A stretch of 64,000 nt of DNA from Thioalkalivibrio sp. ALJ3 (GTDB lineage: Bacteria; Pseudomonadota; Gammaproteobacteria; Ectothiorhodospirales; Ectothiorhodospiraceae), in assembly GCF_000377205.1 (NCBI RefSeq), contig NZ_KB897908.1:186001-250000 (forward strand). The letters run 5' to 3'. The notes below the pieces were generated by a model. It worked only from the letters and a program-made list of their open reading frames with translations. It was not told the origin of the DNA and did no database searches. This document shows, piece after piece, positions 5,225-63,189 of this stretch; within the stretch, counting starts at the first letter, position 1; the number at the start of each line of letters is the position of its first letter. The position numbers and the translations under genes are program-made.

Positions 5225-5293
5225 GTAGGAGGCCAGCCCTCTGGCCGATGGAGCATGTCCGACACCCGATCGGCCAGAGGGCTGGCCTCCTAC
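5225..5293. repeat. 69-bp REP-like palindrome, copy 1
   Basis: The left arm 5225-5249 (GTAGGAGGCCAGCCCTCTGG then CCGAT) is a perfect 25-bp inverted repeat of 5269-5293, with a 19-base loop. A second copy lies 171 bases downstream with the same size and layout. It resembles the extragenic palindromes (REP/BIME) of pseudomonads and relatives in its GTAGGAG start and GC-rich stem. Confidence 0.85.
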
Positions 5294-5464
5294 AGGGGCG
5301 CGTAGGGCCGGGTCGGGGAATGCCCTTATTCTGGCCGTTGGGGGTGTCGACCCTTGCCATCCTGCCGCCATGACCCGCGGTCCTGGTCATCGTGTTGCTC
5401 TGCCTCCCCGGCATCCCGGATAGCCGCTGCACGGTTGTTGGGGCGTCGGGAGAGAAAATGTCTT

Positions 5465-5533
5465 GTAGGAGGCCAGCCCCCTGGCCGATGGGGTCTGTCC
5501 GGCATCCAATCGGCCAGGGGGCTGGCCTCCTAC
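5465..5533. repeat. 69-bp REP-like palindrome, copy 2
   Basis: Arms 5465-5489 and 5509-5533 pair over 25 bp with a 19-base loop. Compared with copy 1, one stem position changes from T-A to C-G on both arms (CCCTCTGG/CCAGAGGG against CCCCCTGG/CCAGGGGG), so the stem remains perfect. The loops are related but not identical. Confidence 0.85.
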
Positions 5534-5545
5534 GGGGGGCGGCGG

Positions 5546-10194: not shown

Positions 10195-10416
10195 GTGAAG
10201 ACAACACGTTACTTCGAGACCGTACGTGTGCGGCCCGATCGCCGCAACATCAAGGACACATGGATCGAGGCCGCGATCGATCACCCCATCCGGGAAGAAG
10301 TGCAAGGCGATGGTCGTATCCGCCGATGGGCCCGGATCGATGAAGCGGATGGCCGCTATCTTCGCGTGGTGTTGCTTCCTGACGGTGTGACGGTCCACAA
10401 CGCCTTTTTGATCTAG
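10195..10416 (+). CDS. Small toxin-like protein, partner of the downstream DUF2283 gene
   Basis: A 73-residue basic protein starting with GTG at 10195, preceded by AGGGA at 10183-10187. It has motifs EVQGDGRIRRWARI and RYLRVVLLPDGVTVHNAF. I recognise this pattern from small uncharacterised proteins encoded beside DUF2283 genes and regard it as a putative toxin of a type II-like pair, which is inference. Its TAG stop (10414-10416) is the left CTAG edge of the inserted palindromic element. Without the element, the stop would be followed after 10 bases by the start of the DUF2283 gene. Confidence 0.6.
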   Translation: MKTTRYFETVRVRPDRRNIKDTWIEAAIDHPIREEVQGDGRIRRWARIDEADGRYLRVVLLPDGVTVHNAFLI

Positions 10417-10686
10417 GGAAACACTGATTAATGTACACACTCGCGTTGGTACCCCAGGTTTTCCGAGACCAGGCGCGGTGCGCAGCCGGTAGTGGTTCTA
10501 CCGGCAAGGACCGCAACGCAGGATCGGGGAACCTGGGGTGCCAACCCCGAAGGGGCTCGGCCGCTTTTGCGCGCGCACGGCGTTGCGGTTCCCTTGTGCA
10601 GAATGACTGCACGGCGGTCACCGCGCCTTGTTCGCACGCAAAAGCGACTCGAGCGCGAGCGTGTACATTGATCAGTGTTTCCCTAG
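10413..10686 (-). mobile_element. MITE-like palindromic element, copy A (274 bp)
   Basis: Terminal inverted repeats of 33 bp (10413-10445 with 10654-10686, 31 of 33 pairing) begin CTAGGGAAACACTGATTAAT. The inside is the reverse complement of copy B (20354-20641). One arm is 10445-10466 with 10524-10545 and carries an apical hairpin GCCGGTAG/CTACCGGC at 10485-10505. The other arm includes CGCTTTTGCG and the hairpin GTGCAG/CTGCAC. Both borders are CTAG, consistent with duplication of TA. No reading frame of note lies inside. It separates the toxin-like gene from its DUF2283 partner. Confidence 0.85.
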
Positions 10687-16667: not shown

Positions 16668-19490
16668 TTATCGATTCGATTTAATCGAATCGATTTGGGG
16701 CCGTAAAGTGGGCTCCAGGCTCACGGGGGATGCGGCGAGCACGGCAGTTTCCAACCCTTCGAGGTCTCCTGGGTAACCGTACAGGAACCCCTGGAAGTGG
16801 CGGCAGCCCAGACCGAACAGGAAGGCGCGCTGCTCGTCGGTTTCGACACCTTCGGCAATGACGTCCAGATCCAGCGTGTGGGCGAGATTGACGACCATCT
16901 GGGCGATCGCGGCGTCGTTCGGGTCGTCCAGTACGTCCCGTACGAATGACTGGTCGATCTTGAGCTGCGACAGCGGAAGTCGCTTGAGGTAGGCAAGGGA
17001 GGAATAACCGGTGCCGAAGTCGTCGAGGGCGAATTCGACCCCCAGCAGCCGCAGATCGTCGATATGGGAGACGACCGTGTCGACATCCTCAAGCAGCATG
17101 CTCTCGGTCAGTTCGAGCTTCAGGCGGCTGGCCGGGGCGCCAGTCTCCTGCAGCATCGTGTGCAGATCCTGGACGAACTGCTTGTGGCGAAACTGCCGAG
17201 CGCTGACATTGACGGAAAGGGTGAGTTTGCGGAACGCAGCAGAATGCTGCCATGCGGCAAGCCGCTCACAGGCGGTACGCAGTACCTGGCGCCCGATGGG
17301 AACGATCAGACCCGTTTGCTCCGCGACGGGGATAAACACGGTAGGGGCGATTTCGCCCCGCTGCGGATGCGGCCAGCGCAGTAGCAACTCGGCGCCGATC
17401 ACATGTCCATCGGCTTCCACTTGAGGTTGGTAGGCCACGGTGAATCCGTCGTGGTCGAGTGCCTGGCGCAGTTCGCTCTCCAGTTCGAAGCGGGCCTCCA
17501 CGGCTCGATGCAGCTCGGGGTCGTAGAAACGTACCGTGTTGCGCCCGGCGTTCTTCGCGCGATACATGGCCAGGTCCGCCTGCTTGAGGACCTCCTCCAC
17601 GCCGAGGCTGCGGCCACTGAAGAGCGTGGCGCCAATGCTGGGGGTGACATGCCGGTTCTGACCTGCGAGCTCGAAAGGTTCGCGCAGGAGGTTGATCAGC
17701 TTGCGTCCGACCGCCTCCGCTTCGGTGGCGGCCCTGGCCGGATCCGGGTGGAGGTCGTTGAGAATGATCACGAACTCGTCGCCACCCAGGCGCGCCAGCG
17801 TGTCGGCTTCGCGCACGGAATTTGCCATGCGACGTGCGACCTGCCGCAGCAGGTCATCGCCAACCGCATGGCCCAGGGTATCGTTGATGTCCTTGAAGTT
17901 GTCCAGGTCGATGAACAGAACAGCACCATGCTGGCCTGTGCGAGCCGTGTTCGCGAGTGCCTGGCCCAGCCGGTCATGCAGCAGTGTACGGTTGGGAAGT
18001 CCGGTCAATCCATCGAAGAAGGCAAGGCGGCGAATCTCCTCCTCGGCCTCCTTGCGGTCGGAAATATCCATCATGGTGCCGAACATGGCCATGACCTGGC
18101 CATCGTCATCGAAGCGGGCACTGGCGTAGACGCTGACCCAGCGATGGCCGCCGTCGTGGGTGCGCAGCCGGATCTCTTCGGACTGCGCGTGGGTGCCCCC
18201 TTCGAGCAGGGTGGCGCAGAAGCTTTGCGCGTCGTCGCGGTCGTGTGGGACCACGTAGTTGCATAGCGGTTCGCCCAAGGTCTCTTCCACTGGAAAGCCG
18301 GTCATGGCTTCCCATGCCGGGTTCAGGAGCGTCCATCGGCCATCGGCATCGGTGCGGAAGATCACCTCGGAGATGTGGTTGACGACGTCCTTGTAGCGGT
18401 TCTCGCTTTCCTTCAGGGCCGCGGTGGCGCGCCGGTGGGCAGTGATGTCCAGCGTGAGGCCGCGGAGACTGCGGCGGTTCCCTGAATCATCGGCCCAGGA
18501 GAGGATGTCGCGCAGCCAGATCCATTGCCCGTTGCGGTGGGCGAAACGGTAGTCCACCACCTTGGGACCGGCACCGGGTTCGCGCGCCGCCTCGCGAACA
18601 CGGGGCAGATCGGCCGGGTGGATATGCCGCGCGCGGAGCTCGCCGCGGCCCAGGTTGCGCGAGGGAAAGCCCAGCAGCTTGCGTGTATCCCCCGCAACGA
18701 ACTCCCATTCATGGCTGTCAGGGTTGGCTTCCCACAGGATGGCGTTGGCCCCGCCCAGCATCGATTCCAGTCGGGCCACGGACCGGTTCAGCTGCTGGTT
18801 TTGCTGTTGCAGGGTCGATTGAGTGGTACCCAGATGGGCTGCCATGTCGTTGAACGTCAGGGCCAGATCGCCGAATTCGTCGCGCGAGTCGATACGCACT
18901 CGATGGTCCAGGTGTCCGGCCTCCAGTGCCTTGCTCCCTTGCAACAGCAGACGCAGGCGCCGGGTCATCATCAGGGCGAACAGGATGGCCGCGAGGATCG
19001 ACAGCCCCAGCACGCCCAGGGCCAGCAGAACATTGCGTTCCAGGAGGTTCGCCGAGAGCTGCTCGATTGCCTCGGTGGAGTAGCCGACGGCCACTGAGCC
19101 AAGGGGTTGATCGGAAAGCTCGATACTGCGGGCGATTTCGACCTGGCCGGCCTCTCTGCGTACGCCTTGCTCGACCGCGGGAAGGTGGTCCGGTGCGACG
19201 CCGACCGAGGCCAGGGGGCGATCGCTGGCGTCGAGTACCACTGCGTACAGCACGTTCGAGTCGTCGGCCAGCAGGCCGAGCAGATCCTGCAGCATCGCGG
19301 GGTCCGCATAGGCCAGGCCGGGAGTGAGGGCCGACCCCAGCAGCCGGCTTTGCTGTTCCGCGGTGCGTTCCAGTACTTCCTGCTGATTCTGCTGGACTTG
19401 GGTGATGCCGCTAAAGAGCAAAGCCCCGACCATCACGACCTGGATCGCGACGGTCCCGATGATGATCTGCCAGGCGACGTTCAGGCGCAT
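16668..19490 (-). CDS. Membrane PAS-GGDEF-EAL cyclic di-GMP enzyme
   Basis: A 940-residue inner-membrane protein. Domain order: TM1 (about 7-29), a periplasmic sensor region (30-150), TM2 (153-176), HAMP (175-228), two PAS domains (about 245-355 and 360-480), GGDEF (485-660) and EAL (675-920). The cyclase motif GGDEF is intact at 569-573. The phosphodiesterase domain has E701-L-L-L-R in place of the usual EALxR, which keeps the catalytic Glu and Arg, plus DDFGTGYSS (823-831) and EGVE (880-883). Both activities are therefore possible. It probably responds to a periplasmic or redox signal; the signal is unknown. Confidence 0.92.
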   Translation of the reverse strand: MRLNVAWQIIIGTVAIQVVMVGALLFSGITQVQQNQQEVLERTAEQQSRLLGSALTPGLAYADPAMLQDLLGLLADDSNVLYAVVLDASDRPLASVGVAPDHLPAVEQGVRREAGQVEIARSIELSDQPLGSVAVGYSTEAIEQLSANLLERNVLLALGVLGLSILAAILFALMMTRRLRLLLQGSKALEAGHLDHRVRIDSRDEFGDLALTFNDMAAHLGTTQSTLQQQNQQLNRSVARLESMLGGANAILWEANPDSHEWEFVAGDTRKLLGFPSRNLGRGELRARHIHPADLPRVREAAREPGAGPKVVDYRFAHRNGQWIWLRDILSWADDSGNRRSLRGLTLDITAHRRATAALKESENRYKDVVNHISEVIFRTDADGRWTLLNPAWEAMTGFPVEETLGEPLCNYVVPHDRDDAQSFCATLLEGGTHAQSEEIRLRTHDGGHRWVSVYASARFDDDGQVMAMFGTMMDISDRKEAEEEIRRLAFFDGLTGLPNRTLLHDRLGQALANTARTGQHGAVLFIDLDNFKDINDTLGHAVGDDLLRQVARRMANSVREADTLARLGGDEFVIILNDLHPDPARAATEAEAVGRKLINLLREPFELAGQNRHVTPSIGATLFSGRSLGVEEVLKQADLAMYRAKNAGRNTVRFYDPELHRAVEARFELESELRQALDHDGFTVAYQPQVEADGHVIGAELLLRWPHPQRGEIAPTVFIPVAEQTGLIVPIGRQVLRTACERLAAWQHSAAFRKLTLSVNVSARQFRHKQFVQDLHTMLQETGAPASRLKLELTESMLLEDVDTVVSHIDDLRLLGVEFALDDFGTGYSSLAYLKRLPLSQLKIDQSFVRDVLDDPNDAAIAQMVVNLAHTLDLDVIAEGVETDEQRAFLFGLGCRHFQGFLYGYPGDLEGLETAVLAASPVSLEPTLRPQIDSIKSNR

Positions 19491-19765
19491 GCAGGCCCCG
19501 TAGACCCGTCAGAACGGGCACGGCGCGGCATGACGCAGTGCAGCTTGGATTCGAGTGGGAGATGGAACATGGTCCGTCCGTAGGCGCCCGTGTTGACCGG
19601 GCTTCAGCGCCTGCAAGGTCCATTATGCTACCTGAATGGAGGATGACTTTCCTCACACGGAGGCATGATGCCCGACCGTTGGCGCTCCCCGATTCGCCGT
19701 CCAGGGATCCGTGCTGGGGATGGCCCTGGACGGCGGGTGTCGTCTGATCGCGGGGTGTCGTCTCC
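19491..19765. other. Intergenic region with a 12-bp inverted repeat
   Basis: 275 bases between doxX and the GGDEF/EAL gene, both on the minus strand. CGCCGTCCAGGG at 19695-19706 pairs perfectly with 19724-19735 over a 17-base loop, but no T tract follows on either strand. The region must hold the promoter of the GGDEF/EAL gene; I could not assign -35 and -10 boxes with confidence. No gene is seen. Confidence 0.5.
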
Positions 19766-20158
19766 CTAGTAGCGGTTGATGGCGAGGCGGCCGGGGCCGG
19801 TCAGGGCCAGGGCGATTGCCGAGAACAGGAACATGGCCTGCAGTTCGATGGCCCAGCCGCCGTGCTGGGTCAACTGAACAACCTCGTCCGCATGGGCGAG
19901 ACCGATGGCGAACAGCATGTTCACTGCGATCAGCACGGCACCGATGCGCGCATACAGACCAATGATCAACAGGACCGGTGCCAGCACCTCGCCAATATAG
20001 GCACCGTAGGCAAGTATCCCCGGCAGGCCAGCGCCGGCCAGCATGCCTTCGATGTGCCCGACACCGCCAGAGATCTTGTCGATCCCGTGGAGCAGGATCA
20101 TTACGCCCAGGGCCAGGCGCAGAATGAGCTTGCCACTATCGTCCAGTATGTTGTCCAT
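19766..20158 (-). CDS. DoxX family membrane protein
   Basis: A 130-residue protein with four predicted membrane segments, the DoxX fold: LILRLALGVMILLHGIDKI, the GHIEGMLAGAGLPGILAYGAY segment, VLAPVLLIIGLYARIGAVL and a last helix near FLFSAIALAL. DoxX proteins are linked to redox or sulfur metabolism in different bacteria; the exact role here is unknown. The ATG at 20158 has AAGGAGA upstream and overlaps the 3' end of the interrupted PhnD-like gene by 23 bases. Its transcription may now depend on whatever passes the inserted element. Confidence 0.85.
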   Translation of the reverse strand: MDNILDDSGKLILRLALGVMILLHGIDKISGGVGHIEGMLAGAGLPGILAYGAYIGEVLAPVLLIIGLYARIGAVLIAVNMLFAIGLAHADEVVQLTQHGGWAIELQAMFLFSAIALALTGPGRLAINRY

Positions 20159-21394
20159 CCGTGGTCTCCTTGTAAGTGGATGGTGGGTGGGTATCCGGTG
20201 AGGAAACGGGCTGTTCTTTGTCCTCGAGCAGGCCCGCGAGCCGCGAAAAATCGTCCGGGCCGGCGGCATCGAAGCCCCGTTCGTGTCGAATCGCCTGCAG
20301 AAGCGCGCGTCCGTCTGGAGTATCCGACAGCCGCTCGAATTTCCCCTGCAAGTCTAGGGAGACGCTGATTTAATCACACGTCCGCGCTCGAGTCGCTTTT
20401 GCGTGCGAACAAGGCGCGGTGACTGCCGTGCAGTCATTCTGCACAAGGGAACCGCAACGCCGTTCCCACGCAAAAGCGGCCGAGCCCCTGCTTTCAATGG
20501 CTTGTGGGGTTGGCGCCCCCTGTTCCCCGATCCTGCGTTGCGCCGCTTGCGGGTAGAACCACTACCCGCTGCACGACGCGCCTTGTCTCGGAAAACAGGG
20601 GGCACCAACGCGGACGTGCGATTAAATCAGCGTCTCCCTAGATCATCGCTGCGCGCACGTTGGTGGAGCACAACCGTGAAGCCGGGGAAACTCTCCGACT
20701 GAGCGATGATGCGGGCCAGAGTGCCGTCGGCGAGGGCGATCAGTCGTGCGGTGTCGACCGTCTCTTCACGCGGTTGCAGGGCGACCCCGTCGATCACCAC
20801 CACACTTGCGTCGGCCAGGCCCAGCAGCATGGCCGATGTGGCTCCCTGGTGGTGCGGGAACTCCAGGTATTCGACTGCTGGCTCATTGGGCGCAAATTCG
20901 ATCTCCAGGAGGGTGCGCGCCAGGGTGGCGCCTATGCTGTGGCGGAAGGGTGTGGCCAGTGTGGTGCCTTCAAGGTCAGTCAGACTCCTGATCGCGCTGT
21001 CAGCGGGGGCGACGATCACAATGGCGAAGATATCTCTTGAGCGTGCGACGGGCGCATAGGGCCCGGCCGCGTCGAGCAGGGGCACCACATGGGGGGCGAC
21101 GATGGCGATTTCGTAGCGTTCGTCGTGGAGGCGCTCAATGAACTGTGACAAATCCCGGGATGACTCCAGAAACACGGGGTCGCCGCGCTCTTCGGCGATC
21201 CAGTCGCGCAAGGGCGCATAGCGTTCGAACAGTACGGGCGGGCTGGCGAAGGGCTGCACACCCAGGGTCCATGTGTCGGCGGTGACCGGGGATGCCATCA
21301 GGAGTGTGAGCAGGATTGTGAGGCAAGCCCCCACCCGCCGCGAACGCACGGCAAATCGGCATGACGACCAAACGCGTGGCCCGGGGGCTCGCAT
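20136..21394 (-). pseudogene. PhnD-like periplasmic binding protein gene interrupted by palindromic element
   Basis: The 5' part (21394 to about 20642) encodes a signal peptide (cleavage likely after ASPVTA) and a mature type 2 periplasmic binding domain of the phosphate/phosphonate (PhnD-like) kind: LGVQPFASPPVLFERYAPL, IAIVAPHVVPLLDAAG, TTLATPFRHSIGATLAR. The current frame runs into copy B and stops after 255 residues. The 3' part (20353-20136) encodes KFERLSDTPDGRALLQAI and more, the C-terminal helices of the same family. Joining the two across a single CTAG gives one uninterrupted 324-residue frame. The 255-residue product is probably non-functional; no transporter genes adjoin it, so it may have been a sensory binding protein. 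Confidence 0.85.
20354..20641 (+). mobile_element. MITE-like palindromic element, copy B (288 bp)
   Basis: Terminal inverted repeats of 33 bp (20354-20386 with 20609-20641, 32 of 33 pairing) begin CTAGGGAGACGCTGATTTAA. Arm 1: core stem 20394-20405 with 20467-20478 and apical hairpin GTGCAG/CTGCAC at 20428-20444. Arm 2: stem 20509-20530 with 20588-20609 (19 of 22 pairing) and hairpin GCGGGTAG/CTACCCGC at 20549-20569 with loop AACCA. CTAG flanks both sides and the target gene reads through when one copy is removed. It encodes no protein of note. Confidence 0.88.
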
Positions 21395-21632
21395 GCGCCT
21401 CCTCCCTGCGGCTGCTCGTCTTGCTATCCATAGCGCGTATCGAGGGGCCTGTCCATCATGTGTCAACAACTTGGCGGAGTGGCCGCGGGCTCCCCGCGTG
21501 GCCTGACGGGATTTCGTTAACGAGAACGTTGAATGGTCTTCTCCCGTGGGTGGCGGGGAGCTGGCGCTAATCTTGCATGAGGCCTCCGGCATGCAGATCA
21601 CCGTGTCGACGGACACGGCCGGAGGAATGGAC

Positions 21633-22694
21633 ATGAACGTATTCGATCGCGTGGCGGAGGCCCTTCTCGCCATGCTGCAGGATTTGACACCCCTGACGGT
21701 CATCGGCGCTTTTTCGCTGTTGCTGTTCGGGCTGTTTCTCGTGGCGTTGATGGCCCTGGCCCTGCGTCGAGCGCCCGCCCTGCAGGGCGCCGCGCCCGCG
21801 TTGCTGACCACATTGGGGATCCTCGGTACGTTCCTTGGTGTTGCCATCGGGCTGATCGATTTCGACGCCGCTCGGGTGGAAGCGAGCATCCCGGCATTGC
21901 TGGAGGGCCTGAAGCTCGCCTTCGTGACCAGCATCGTGGGTCTCCTGCTGGCGGCGGTATTGCGCGTTCTGCAGGTGATGATGCCGGCCCCGGACGCGGT
22001 CCCGGGTGGTGGGGTGGACCCTCAAGCCAGCGATGACCCCGAACGTGTGCTGGCCGAGCAGCGCGACGCCACACGGGCCCTGCTACAGGCGGTGCAGCGC
22101 ATGGATCGCCGTCTGGATGATCGGTTGAAAGATCAACACCACGAGCTGAAGCAGAGCCTGGAGGGGCTGGCGGATCGCATGAGCGAGCTCAGCAGCGGGC
22201 ATCTGGTGGCCGCGCTGGAGCAGGTGATTCGCGATTTCAACGACCGTCTGGGCGAGCAGTTCGGCGAGAACTTCCGCCGACTGGACGACTCCGTGGCGCG
22301 GCTGGTGGACTGGCAGGATCGCTACCGCGAGCAGATGGATACCCTGCACCGGGCGTTCGACCAGGCGCGGGAGGGCGTCGAACAGAGCGAAGGTGCGCTG
22401 GAGCGTCTGACTGGACAGGCGCTGAAGATTACCCGGCATGTCGAAGAGCAGGATGCGACGCTGTCCAGTCTGCGGCGGGAGACGGTGGAGCTGGAGGCCC
22501 TGTTGAGTGCCATCGCCGCGCTGCGTGATCGAGCCACCGAGGCTTTCCCCGCAATGGATGCACGGTTGGAGGCGATGCTGGAGAGCATCGAGAGCGCCGT
22601 GCAGTCCGGGCGTGCGGCCGAGTCGCGCTGGCGGGGCGAGGCATTCGCAGTGGGTGTGGCCACCCCGGCCGACACCTTGGGGGCGCGGTCGTGA
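21633..22694 (+). CDS. ZorA/MotA/ExbB-like proton channel protein with coiled-coil tail
   Basis: A 353-residue inner-membrane protein. Three membrane segments (about 22-45, 55-75, 92-113) carry the MotA/TolQ/ExbB core with LLTTLGILGTFLGVAIGL and GLKLAFVTSIVGLLLAAV. A long Glu/Arg-rich coiled coil fills residues 130-330. This layout matches ZorA-type channel proteins. The start at 21633 is set by GGAGG at 21621-21625; upstream in-frame starts lack such a site. Its stop overlaps the start of the OmpA-domain gene (GTGA). It probably forms an ion-driven motor or force-transmitting complex with that partner; the purpose is unknown. Confidence 0.8.
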   Translation: MNVFDRVAEALLAMLQDLTPLTVIGAFSLLLFGLFLVALMALALRRAPALQGAAPALLTTLGILGTFLGVAIGLIDFDAARVEASIPALLEGLKLAFVTSIVGLLLAAVLRVLQVMMPAPDAVPGGGVDPQASDDPERVLAEQRDATRALLQAVQRMDRRLDDRLKDQHHELKQSLEGLADRMSELSSGHLVAALEQVIRDFNDRLGEQFGENFRRLDDSVARLVDWQDRYREQMDTLHRAFDQAREGVEQSEGALERLTGQALKITRHVEEQDATLSSLRRETVELEALLSAIAALRDRATEAFPAMDARLEAMLESIESAVQSGRAAESRWRGEAFAVGVATPADTLGARS

Positions 22695-23443
22695 TCCTGC
22701 GCTGGCTGTTGCAGCGCCGCGCACGTGCCCGCGGCACATCGCACGAGGCGGATCAGGGCTCGCACTGGCTGGCGGTGGCGGACCTGATGGCCGCGTTGAT
22801 GATGATCTTCCTGTTCCTGGCGCTGTTGCACATGGTGCAGGTCGAGCGCTCCAGTGCGGCCCATGCCGAGGTACGCAACGAGGCCTCCGCTTTGCGCGCG
22901 GCGATCTATTCGGTGCTGGAGGAGGAGTTCCGCGATGACCTGCCGCGCTGGAATGCGGAACTCGACCGCGACACACTGACGCTGCGTTTCCGCGAGCCGG
23001 AGGTCTTGTTCGAGCGTAGTTCCGCGAGTATCCGGCCGCGCTTCGAGGCGATCCTGGACGACTTCATGCCGCGCTACGCGGAGCAGTTGCGCCCGTTTGC
23101 CGACGTGATCCGCGAGGTGCGCATCGAGGGGCATACCTCCAGCGAATGGGCGGGTAGCGACGATGCGATCGATGCCTATTTCGGCAATATGGACCTGAGC
23201 CAGCGGCGTACCCGGGCGGTGCTCGAGCATGCCTATCGGCTCGAGCCACTGCAGGAAGATGACTGGTTCCGTTCGCGGGTGGCGGCGGTAGGCTTGTCGT
23301 CCTCGCGGCGGGTGCTGGATGCGGATGGACGGGAAGACCGCGAGGCCTCGCGGCGGGTGGAGTTCAGCGTCCTGACGGACTTCGAGGCGCGTCTGCTCGG
23401 AGCGCCGGACGCGCCTGCGCCGGTGGAGGCGCGGGCACGGTAG
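22691..23443 (+). CDS. ZorB/MotB-like OmpA-domain stator protein
   Basis: A 250-residue protein with one N-terminal membrane helix (WLAVADLMAALMMIFLFLAL). It carries an Asp at position 31, where MotB/ExbD/ZorB proteins have their proton-carrying Asp. A periplasmic helical linker leads to an OmpA-like peptidoglycan-binding domain, seen as VRIEGHTSSEW, LSQRRTRAVL and a closing EASRRVEFSVL. The GTG start at 22691 overlaps the stop of the channel gene, so the two are made together. No zorC, zorD or zorE lies beside it; the next gene is glnD on the other strand. Confidence 0.8.
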   Translation: MILRWLLQRRARARGTSHEADQGSHWLAVADLMAALMMIFLFLALLHMVQVERSSAAHAEVRNEASALRAAIYSVLEEEFRDDLPRWNAELDRDTLTLRFREPEVLFERSSASIRPRFEAILDDFMPRYAEQLRPFADVIREVRIEGHTSSEWAGSDDAIDAYFGNMDLSQRRTRAVLEHAYRLEPLQEDDWFRSRVAAVGLSSSRRVLDADGREDREASRRVEFSVLTDFEARLLGAPDAPAPVEARAR

Positions 23444-23449
23444 CCTGGT

Positions 23450-26131
23450 TCAGATGGCCTCGAGCAGGGCGCGGCGGAGTTGCTCTTGCTGCGTGGGCTC
23501 GAGTGGCCCCTGGTCGTTACGCGCCAGCAGGAAGCTGTCTTCCACCTGCTCGCCGGCGGTGGCGATTCGGGCCGTGCGTACGTCGATCGCGTGTGCGGCC
23601 AGGACATGGCCGATGGTCGACAGCAGTCCAGGACGGTCGAGCGCGCGCAGGCGCATGCGCGTGGCCTGCCCGCTGGAGGCAGGTTCGAATTCGATTCGGG
23701 TATCCACATCGAAATGTTTCAGGCGACGCGGTAGCTGGCGGCTGACGGGGGTGTTCTCGCCATCGGTGCGGGTGAGCTCGTTGGCCAGGTATTGGCGGAT
23801 TTCGTCACTGCGGTAGCCAGCGTCCACGGTCTGCCCGCCACCACTCTCGAGTACCAGGAAGGTGTCCAGCGTACGCCCCCCGGCTGTGGTGATGATGCGG
23901 GCGTCGACGATGTCGAGGCCCAGCTGGGTCAGCGCACTGGTGATCCGGGCAAACAGGTAGGGGTGGTCTTCGGCATAGACGAAGATCTCGGTGCTGCCGC
24001 GCGAGGTCTTGGGGCGTACCAGGATCAATGGCAGGTCGTCGGCTTTCAGTGGCAGCAGTGCCTGTCCGTGCCAGGCGACCTCGTCGGCGGAGTGGCGGAG
24101 GAAGTACTCGTCGTCGAGTTCGTCCCACAGGGCCTCCGCCTCGCCTGTGCCGAAGCCGCGATCCTCGAGCAGTTGCAGTGCCTCGCCGCGGGTTTCGCGG
24201 ATCTGTGCGTCCATGTTCGGCGCCTCGTCGAGCCCGCGTTCCAGGACGTTGCCTGTCGCGTGGTAGAGGGTCTGCAGCAGCGAGTCCTTCCAGCTGTTCC
24301 ACAGTTCCGGATTGGTGCCACGGATATCGGCGATGGTCAGCAGGTACAGGAAGTCGAGGCGTTCTCGGGTGTGGACCTCGCGGGCGAAGGCCAGTACGAC
24401 ATCGGGATCGGAGATGTCCTTGCGCTGGGCGGTGAGGGACATCAGGAGGTGGGAGCGCACCAGCCAGGCCACCAGCCCGGCGTCTTCGTCCGACAGGCCG
24501 TGCTGCTGGCAGAAGTGCAGGGCATCGTGGGCGCCCAGCTCCGAGTGGTCGCCGCCGCGGCCCTTGGCGATGTCATGAAACAGGGCTGCCAGCACCAGCC
24601 GTTCGGGGCGCTCCAGTTCCGTATGGATGCGGTGGGCCAGCGGCTGCTCGTGGGCAAACTCTGGCAAAGCCAGCCGGCGGGCGTTGCGCACCACGTTGAG
24701 GGTGTGTTCGTCGACCGTGTAGGCGTGGAACAGGTCGTACTGCATACGCCCGATGATGCGCCCGAAGGCGGGGAGGTAGTTGCCCAGCACACCATAACGG
24801 TTCATGCGGCGCAGCTGGCTGGTAATTCCGCGGGGTGCGCGCAGGATGTCCATAAACAGCGCACGGCAGACGGGGTTGCGGCGGAAGTGCCCGTCGATCA
24901 GATGTCGGTGGGCGCGGATCAGGCGGATGGTCGAGGCGCGGATACCCTGGATCTCCGGGTGCTCCTGCAGCAGGCGAAAGACCTCCAGCAGAGCCGGTGG
25001 GTAGATCATGAAGACCTGGTCATGTGCCGCTTCCAGATAGCCGCCGCGCACCTGGAAGCGCTGATGGATGCGGGCCGGGTCCTGCAGGGCCTGTGGATCA
25101 TCGAGGATGGCTTCGTTGAAGTGCTGCAGCAGCAGTTCGTTGAGTCGTTCCAGATCGTTGATCGTGCGGAAGTAGCGCTGCATGAACTGCTCGACCGCAC
25201 GGTTGTGGTTCTGGTCCACGAAGCCGAATGTGTTGGCCAGCTGGCGCTGCAGGTCGAACAGCAACCGATCCTCGCGGCGCCCGGCCAGCATGTGCAGGGC
25301 GAAGCGCACCCTCCAGAGAAAGCTCTGGCCCTCCAGCATCTCGTGAAGCTCGCCCTCGCGCAGGAAGCCCAGCGACACCAGCTCTTCGATGCGTTCGGCG
25401 CCGTAGTGGCGCTTGGTCACCCAGCCGATCATCTGGATGTCGCGCAGCCCGCCGGGACCTTCCTTCACATTGGGTTCCAGGCGGTAGCCGGTTTCCCCGA
25501 AGCGGCGATGCCGGGCCTGTTGTTCCGCGAGCTTGGCGGCGTAGAAACTGCGCGAATCCCAGATGTGATCGGAGTCGATTGCGGCGCGAAAATCGTTGAA
25601 CAGGCTCAAATTTCCGCTTAAGTAGCGTGATTCGATCAGGTTGGTTGCGACCGTGATGTCGTCGTGGGCCTCGCGGGTGCAGTCCTTGATGCTGCGTACG
25701 CTGTGGCCGACTTCGATTCCGATATCCCAGAGGAAGGTGACGAACGCGCTGATGCGGTCGAACACCTCGCGGTCTGTGGTGTCATCAATGACGATCTGCA
25801 GGTCGATGTCGGAGGCGGGGTGCAGCTCGCCGCGTCCGTAACCGCCGACCGCAACCAGACAAAGGCGGTCGTCGTCGGCCAGCCCCTGTTGGGCCCAGAT
25901 GAGCTTGAGCATTTCGTCAATGCGTCGGGCATGGCCGAGGATCAGTTCCTCGATCGGCATCCCGTCGCGAAAGCCCTGGTACTGCTGTTCGAGGATGGCG
26001 CGGCGGCGATCCCGGAACAAGGAGATGTTCCCGGGGTTACGGCTCAGATGCTGGTAGTCCTCGCCCCAGTCCGGGGAGAACGCAGGGCTGTCCGCCTCGC
26101 TGGGCGTGTCACCGGCGGGCAGGGTGGTCAT
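23450..26131 (-). CDS. glnD: Bifunctional [protein-PII] uridylyltransferase/uridylyl-removing enzyme
   Basis: An 893-residue nitrogen sensor that uridylylates PII (GlnB/GlnK) under low glutamine and removes UMP under high glutamine. The nucleotidyltransferase motif is in GGYGRGELHPASDIDLQIV. An HD domain has LFHDIAKGRGGDHSELGAHDA, and two C-terminal ACT domains bind glutamine (the first with DIVDARIITTAGGRTLDTF, the second near ALDRPGLLSTIGHVLA). Length and order match E. coli GlnD (890). It starts 1 base after the map stop, so map-glnD is one operon. Confidence 0.96.
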   Translation of the reverse strand: MTTLPAGDTPSEADSPAFSPDWGEDYQHLSRNPGNISLFRDRRRAILEQQYQGFRDGMPIEELILGHARRIDEMLKLIWAQQGLADDDRLCLVAVGGYGRGELHPASDIDLQIVIDDTTDREVFDRISAFVTFLWDIGIEVGHSVRSIKDCTREAHDDITVATNLIESRYLSGNLSLFNDFRAAIDSDHIWDSRSFYAAKLAEQQARHRRFGETGYRLEPNVKEGPGGLRDIQMIGWVTKRHYGAERIEELVSLGFLREGELHEMLEGQSFLWRVRFALHMLAGRREDRLLFDLQRQLANTFGFVDQNHNRAVEQFMQRYFRTINDLERLNELLLQHFNEAILDDPQALQDPARIHQRFQVRGGYLEAAHDQVFMIYPPALLEVFRLLQEHPEIQGIRASTIRLIRAHRHLIDGHFRRNPVCRALFMDILRAPRGITSQLRRMNRYGVLGNYLPAFGRIIGRMQYDLFHAYTVDEHTLNVVRNARRLALPEFAHEQPLAHRIHTELERPERLVLAALFHDIAKGRGGDHSELGAHDALHFCQQHGLSDEDAGLVAWLVRSHLLMSLTAQRKDISDPDVVLAFAREVHTRERLDFLYLLTIADIRGTNPELWNSWKDSLLQTLYHATGNVLERGLDEAPNMDAQIRETRGEALQLLEDRGFGTGEAEALWDELDDEYFLRHSADEVAWHGQALLPLKADDLPLILVRPKTSRGSTEIFVYAEDHPYLFARITSALTQLGLDIVDARIITTAGGRTLDTFLVLESGGGQTVDAGYRSDEIRQYLANELTRTDGENTPVSRQLPRRLKHFDVDTRIEFEPASSGQATRMRLRALDRPGLLSTIGHVLAAHAIDVRTARIATAGEQVEDSFLLARNDQGPLEPTQQEQLRRALLEAI

Positions 26132-63025: not shown

Positions 63026-63189
63026 CTAGGGAGACGCTGATTGCATCACACGTCCGCGCTCGAGTCGCTTTTGCGTGCGAACAGGGCGCGGTGACCGCCG
63101 TGCAGCATTCTGCATAAGGGAGCCGCAACGCAGGATCGGGGAATTGGGGGTACCAACGCGGACGTGTGATGCAATCAGCGTCCCCCTAA
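63026..63189 (+). mobile_element. MITE-like palindromic element, copy C (164 bp, shortened)
   Basis: Terminal inverted repeats of 33 bp (63026-63058 with 63157-63189, 31 of 33 pairing) read CTAGGGAGACGCTGATTGCA, with GC in place of the TA of copy B on both sides. It keeps the first half of arm 1 and the outer part of arm 2, with the rest missing. The left border is CTAG and the right border CTAA. Its right edge supplies the TAG stop of the ABC ATPase gene. Confidence 0.85.

Follow-up and report, generated by a model that had tools for sequence, protein, structure and literature searches.

Why does a binding-protein gene of Thioalkalivibrio sp. ALJ3, a soda-lake sulfur bacterium, run into a short repeat and stop there, while a second open frame, apparently of the same protein family, begins on the far side of this repeat? 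An earlier note on the 64,000-nucleotide stretch of DNA analysed here (the window) had answered that a repeat, its copy B, was inserted into a once-intact gene. The following sections examine the gene, its orthologues, the element, and the consequences that the break may have had.

Reconstruction of the Interrupted Gene

The 5' part of the gene, which encodes a protein of the PF12974 (phosphonate-binding-like) family, occupies positions 20638–21394 on the reverse strand, from the ATG at 21394 through a CTAG, and scores 82.2 bits against this family. Its frame continues into copy B and ends there at a TGA (20627–20629, reverse strand) after 255 residues, of which the last three (GRR) are element-encoded and the remaining 252 are native. 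The element is flanked by two copies of a 4-bp target repeat, CTAG at 20638–20641 and CTAG at 20354–20357, and beyond the second one lies the 3' part of the gene (20136–20353, reverse strand). When only one CTAG is kept, both parts add up to 975 nt (757 + 218), corresponding to 324 codons and a stop, with the junction codons GAT CTA GAC TTG CAG and no further stop or frameshift along the reconstructed frame. The insertion site is the CTAG in codons 252–254, with the break at residue 253. All of this agrees with the earlier note: the end of the 5' frame inside the element was read directly, and the coordinates of the separate 3' frame (20353–20136), the in-phase junction, and the 975-base total were recomputed with the same outcome.

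The length of 324 residues given in that note holds in part. The similarity to the orthologue of Thioalkalivibrio sp. ALJ21 ends ~44 residues into the 3' piece, and the three nearest orthologues contain nothing that matches the last 27 residues of the frame, a tail whose final 23 nt overlap the start of a DoxX gene (20158). Judged from the sequence, 324 is a frame length rather than a proven protein length. More distant orthologues hold tails of varying length, and therefore this mismatch does not speak against a split gene.

Orthologues and the Undisturbed Site

A search of 58 genomes with the 5' piece gave matches in 20, the host included. Used as separate BLAST queries against the frames of 19 relatives (E < 1e-3), the 5' piece finds all 19 and the 3' piece 10, with the whole same-genus orthologue L038 giving a weak match to the latter (E 0.037). 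The comparison with close relatives that the earlier note had proposed places both pieces, without joining them, side by side on a single protein: residues 9–253 of the ALJ21 orthologue are covered by the 5' piece (E 1e-87, 52% identity) and residues 255–298 of it by the 3' piece (E 5e-8).

Orthologues all ending at about 255 residues, with the downstream frame absent, had been named as the pattern that would speak against an insertion. In the alignment of eleven whole-frame orthologues from the same genus (L032–L042), the insertion point is read through without a stop in every case; their stop-to-stop open frames range from 306 to 398 codons, and none of these intact orthologues is as short as 255 residues. 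An uninterrupted orthologue in a sister strain, also suggested as a check, exists together with the site itself: the undisturbed sequence predicted for the host, GATCTAGACTTGCAG, is present letter for letter in L033 (genome G029) and L034 (G001, i.e., ALJ21), and a near form, GTTCTAGAATTGGAG, occupies the same position in L032 (G025), while the remaining eight of the 11 orthologues differ from the prediction at the DNA level. The claim of an insertion into a once-intact gene, including its target site, is thus matched by the exact predicted sequence in the genomes of two relatives. The event is clear because related species keep the gene unbroken, and the split is not a matter of chance, since its pieces match adjoining parts of one orthologue and the predicted site exists in two relatives. 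The observation is confirmed, and its interpretation as a split gene is supported.

The notion that the gene always ended at about 255 residues, with an unrelated or chance 3' frame, can be given practically no credence: although the 3' piece alone has no Pfam match above the cut-off and reaches E < 1e-3 in just 10 of the 19 relatives, with little similarity in the distant ones, its first 44 residues match the orthologue C-terminus in the right place, and the junction DNA identical in two sister genomes already refutes this reading. Equally negligible is an assembly artefact joining two loci across a repeated element. At least eight of the 24 host contig ends (20 examined) do fall within copies of this element, but both sides of copy B hold adjoining parts of one gene and matching 4-bp repeats. 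Moreover, the outer genes on both sides keep the order of the relatives—GGDEF/EAL protein, DoxX, binding protein, MotA-like, OmpA-like, and GlnD in the host, G025, and ALJ21 alike—which speaks against a misjoined contig.

A second independent break was considered for G008, where the orthologue is split between L043 and L054, and was rejected: the contig there finishes in a long stretch of C, with no element end near it, so this split is an assembly fault.

Features of the Inserted Element and Its Target

Copy B (20358–20637, reverse strand) is 280 bp long and carries no transposase. Its perfect 18-bp inverted ends, GGAGACGCTGATTTAATC, lie at 20620–20637 (reverse strand), toward the 5' part of the gene, and at 20358–20375 (forward strand). 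An 84-residue frame inside it matches no Pfam family, the element has no match in Rfam or among plasmid records, and simple scans of positions 19400–21700 revealed no outward promoter or terminator in it. Two further copies are present in the window: copy A (10414–10686), with a second kind of end, GGAAACACTGATTAATGT, and copy C (63030–63185), a version of 156 bp that is internally shortened and keeps its ends.

Identical 4-bp flanks are found on 12 of the 17 clean host copies (11 CTAG and one TTAA), and the target duplication is therefore 4 bp rather than TA. In other genomes, seven of ten copies have identical 4-bp flanks, one of them being TTAG (G026). A TA target repeat, which is of the IS630/Tc1 kind, was ruled out; the TTAA host copy and the TTAG copy of G026 vary in the outer bases. 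CTAG itself occurs 19 times in the window against ~203 occurrences expected from base composition; it is about ten times rarer than predicted and is nonetheless the target of the element.

A link to IS5-family transposases is provided by the ends. In G021, the gene of an IS5-family transposase of 323 residues (PF01609 and PF05598) adjoins a terminus identical to the element end over 21 of 21 bp; the match involves a single end of a single IS, whose start coincides with the edge of its contig. The ISs of G029, of ~1.2 kb and with CTAG on their flanks, have one end that is identical to the element end at 19 of 22 positions (three differences). For the two ISs compared, the ends align with the element and the bodies are not shared. 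Transposases with PF01609 are encoded in 15 of the 30 genomes of the genus. Neither the Pfam model nor the protein query detected an autonomous element or transposase of this kind in the host assembly; these searches work, since the positive controls were matched (nine of 14 control genomes for the model; five of five other genus genomes, chosen as known holders, for the protein). A host transposase could be missing from the assembly, given the contig ends that lie within element copies.

The element thus shares its terminal repeats with IS5-family ISs, duplicates 4 bp of the CTAG/CTAA/TTAA kind, and has no transposase of its own, as is characteristic of IS5-type MITEs. MITEs often, though not necessarily, have their body in common with a parent IS, which is not the case for the two ISs compared here. 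On these sequence features, we conclude that it is a non-autonomous IS5-type MITE, presumably moved in trans. Like the MITEs mobilised by IS5 elements, it is short, lacks a transposase, has ends in common with an IS5-family IS from Thioalkalivibrio, and is flanked by a CTAG/TTAA repeat. Unlike them, it shares only the ends, and it exhibits a strongly folded body and two kinds of ends.

Abundance and Spread of the Element Family

The host genome yielded 104 first-look element candidates, of which 40 were scored; the corresponding listing has 62 rows, comprising these 40 places and 22 arm-to-arm rows. Eight of the 20 contig ends examined lie inside copies, and the repeat consequently fragments the host assembly. 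Six elements of 311 bp carry the same ends as copy B (host C2:197372, C2:311038, C3:230814, C3:269507, C4:30769, and C4:94421). Among 16 of the 17 clean copies—the one at a contig end being left aside—six, including copy B, lie in a frame that is open and in phase to either side, and the frames at three of these six look non-coding by eye.

Members of the family are found in 16 of the 30 genomes of the genus, host included, and in 17 of the 47 of the order, with a single match from beyond the genus (E 8.8e-4). Copies in G004, G022, and G024 share 97–98% identity with copy B, while the glnD genes of these genomes are 81–84% identical to that of the host. Near-identical copies despite such a divergence fit elements that were recently amplified, or passed between members of the genus, as far as sequence comparison can suggest. 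In G021 (C31:320454-321039), two copies lie head to tail, with the intervening bases common to both. No description of this abundant structured MITE family was found in the open-licence literature.

Other short repeats are present in this genus. REP/REPIN repeats of RAYT transposases are known from Thioalkalivibrio, being GTAG-tagged or RAYT-linked according to two reports (PMC3116915, PMC3733652). The element resembles them in its many short palindromic copies per genome and differs from them in its IS5-type ends and 4-bp target repeat. Two 74-nt palindromic repeats in the window (5225–5298 and 5465–5538), which start with GTAG and have CTAC near their end, resemble GTAG-type REP dimers and seem to form a set separate from the element.

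Fold of the Element

The predicted RNA fold of copy B has an energy of -198.5 kcal/mol, where shuffled sequences average -113 (z -15.8). A structure of 105 pairs was scored on 23 of the 30 host loci, the partial or contig-cut ones (L008, L011, L021, L022, L024, L028, and L030) being omitted: 98.6% of its cells are paired, compared with at most 47.8% in slid controls, figures that are flattered by the fact that the structure was taken from the same alignment on which it was scored. Two-sided changes occur at 22 of the 105 pairs, 14 in the outer stem and eight in the inner arms; the 14 in the outer stem count few events, since they mostly separate the two kinds of ends.

Among the host copies L002–L029, a single element body is combined with both GGAGACGCTGATTTAATC and GGAAACACTGATTAATGT. 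L010 combines a left arm of one end type (CCCCTGT) with a right arm of the other (CCTGGGG), a pattern that resembles the outcome of recombination.

The branched fold is kept through compensatory changes; arm-to-arm exchange in palindromic DNA could also produce such changes, so that a function in RNA need not follow from them. A broader scenario, which we put forward as speculative and rather improbable, is that the body, in which two branched arms extend from a long stem, is selected as an RNA or ssDNA fold, that its ends have been switched between two IS5-type kinds, and that different transposases have carried one cargo across much of the genus.

The Binding Protein and the Part That Is Lost

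The 5' piece matches PF12974 (Phosphonate-bd) with its 82.2 bits against a cut-off of 27, over profile positions 2–203 of 242, and the intact ALJ21 orthologue with 108.6 bits over positions 2–242 of 242; positions 204–242, i.e., 39 profile positions, are therefore those lost from the 5' piece. The 3' piece alone matches no Pfam family above the cut-off. The earlier description of the protein as PhnD-like stands in a loose sense, through PF12974, and does not extend to PhnD itself, since the PhnD equivalog TIGR03431 gives 15.9 bits for the 5' piece and 23.7 for the orthologue L033, far below its cut-off of 261.1 bits.

The C-terminal helices that had been attributed to the 3' frame have their counterpart in the predicted model of the ALJ21 orthologue, where helices at 255–264, 266–274, and 286–297 all follow the break at residue 253; this model, built on a seven-sequence alignment, is of middling confidence (mean pLDDT 74). 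Going by this model, the product of 255 residues, 252 native ones followed by GRR, lacks three C-terminal helices and is probably non-functional.

PtxB, ArrX, PhnD, XAC2383, and AioX are among the fold matches of the ALJ21 model. PtxB, PhnD, ArrX, and AioX have the PF12974 family and the predicted fold in common with the binding protein, and its sequence profile matches PtxB and ArrX. It is, however, ~12–21% identical to the solved structures, and its gene has a c-di-GMP sensor protein nearby, whereas none of the examined neighbours encodes an ABC transporter.

Gene Neighbourhood and Selection

Downstream of the interrupted gene lie the DoxX-family gene (19766–20158, reverse strand), whose first 23 nt coincide with the last 23 nt of the interrupted frame, and the gene of a HAMP/PAS/GGDEF/EAL c-di-GMP sensor protein (16668–19490, reverse strand), in which a CHASE8 domain scores just at the cut-off. 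The GGDEF/EAL protein gene stays near the binding-protein gene in relatives; DoxX was not found between them in L123, L124, and L126.

XAC2383-XAC2382 of Xanthomonas citri is a comparable pair of a periplasmic receptor and a diguanylate cyclase. XAC2383, listed as a PF12974 protein in PMC10942540, is a fold match of the protein described here, whose gene is likewise near that of a GGDEF protein in relatives. In contrast to the Xanthomonas pair, DoxX lies in between in several genomes, and the putative partner is a HAMP/PAS/GGDEF/EAL protein. By this analogy and from its gene neighbourhood, the binding protein may act in the periplasm as a sensor for the GGDEF/EAL protein encoded nearby; no PhnD/GGDEF pairing was found in the literature covered.

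The binding protein is 52–57% identical to its orthologues in G025 and ALJ21, where the neighbours reach 88–98% (window positions 16668–26131). The dN/dS of the 5' part is 0.24–0.28 against G025, G029, and G001, and 0.17–0.23 among those three, values that are rough because dS is 1.4–1.6 in the host comparisons, near saturation. As a rough estimate, they point to purifying selection on the gene for most of its history, before the break. G020, the relative whose glnD is most similar to that of the host (90% identical), has no binding-protein gene between DoxX and MotA-like, although the order is otherwise kept (L148, G020:C60:12000-24000), and the gene is therefore dispensable. We conclude that it is a dispensable, fast-changing gene that was broken in the host fairly recently.

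Two readings of its fate bear on these data. It is possible, if tentative, that the gene was already unused and that the insertion struck a gene in the course of being lost: its absence from G020 and its low conservation relative to its neighbours would agree with this, whereas the lack of any other stop or frameshift across the 324 codons and a dN/dS of ~0.25 argue against it. It is quite unlikely that the shortened protein of 255 residues still works, with the element providing a new short C-terminus and the insertion being tolerated. The sequence is intact to residue 252, without another stop or frameshift, and dN/dS is well below 1, but the product falls short by 39 profile positions and three predicted helices, all 11 intact orthologues are longer, and G020 manages without the gene.

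Proposed Mechanism and Significance

The explanation that we hold to be almost certain is that a 280-bp IS5-type MITE was inserted into a CTAG of the binding-protein gene and duplicated it, with inactivation of the gene as the expected outcome. An IS5-family transposase once present in the lineage would have moved the MITE in trans into the CTAG of codons 252–254, duplicating these 4 bp. The truncated product would have lost its three C-terminal helices and, with them, probably its function. If the gene does encode the sensing partner of the GGDEF/EAL protein, this strain would have lost that input.

The insertion mechanism itself is ordinary. As a clean natural knock-out with a known undisturbed state in sister species, the locus gives the exact boundaries of the element and its 4-bp target rule. 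It also points to a fast-changing periplasmic binding protein near a c-di-GMP enzyme, interrupted in one Thioalkalivibrio species and lost from a close relative of it, and to a very abundant family of structured MITEs in Thioalkalivibrio.
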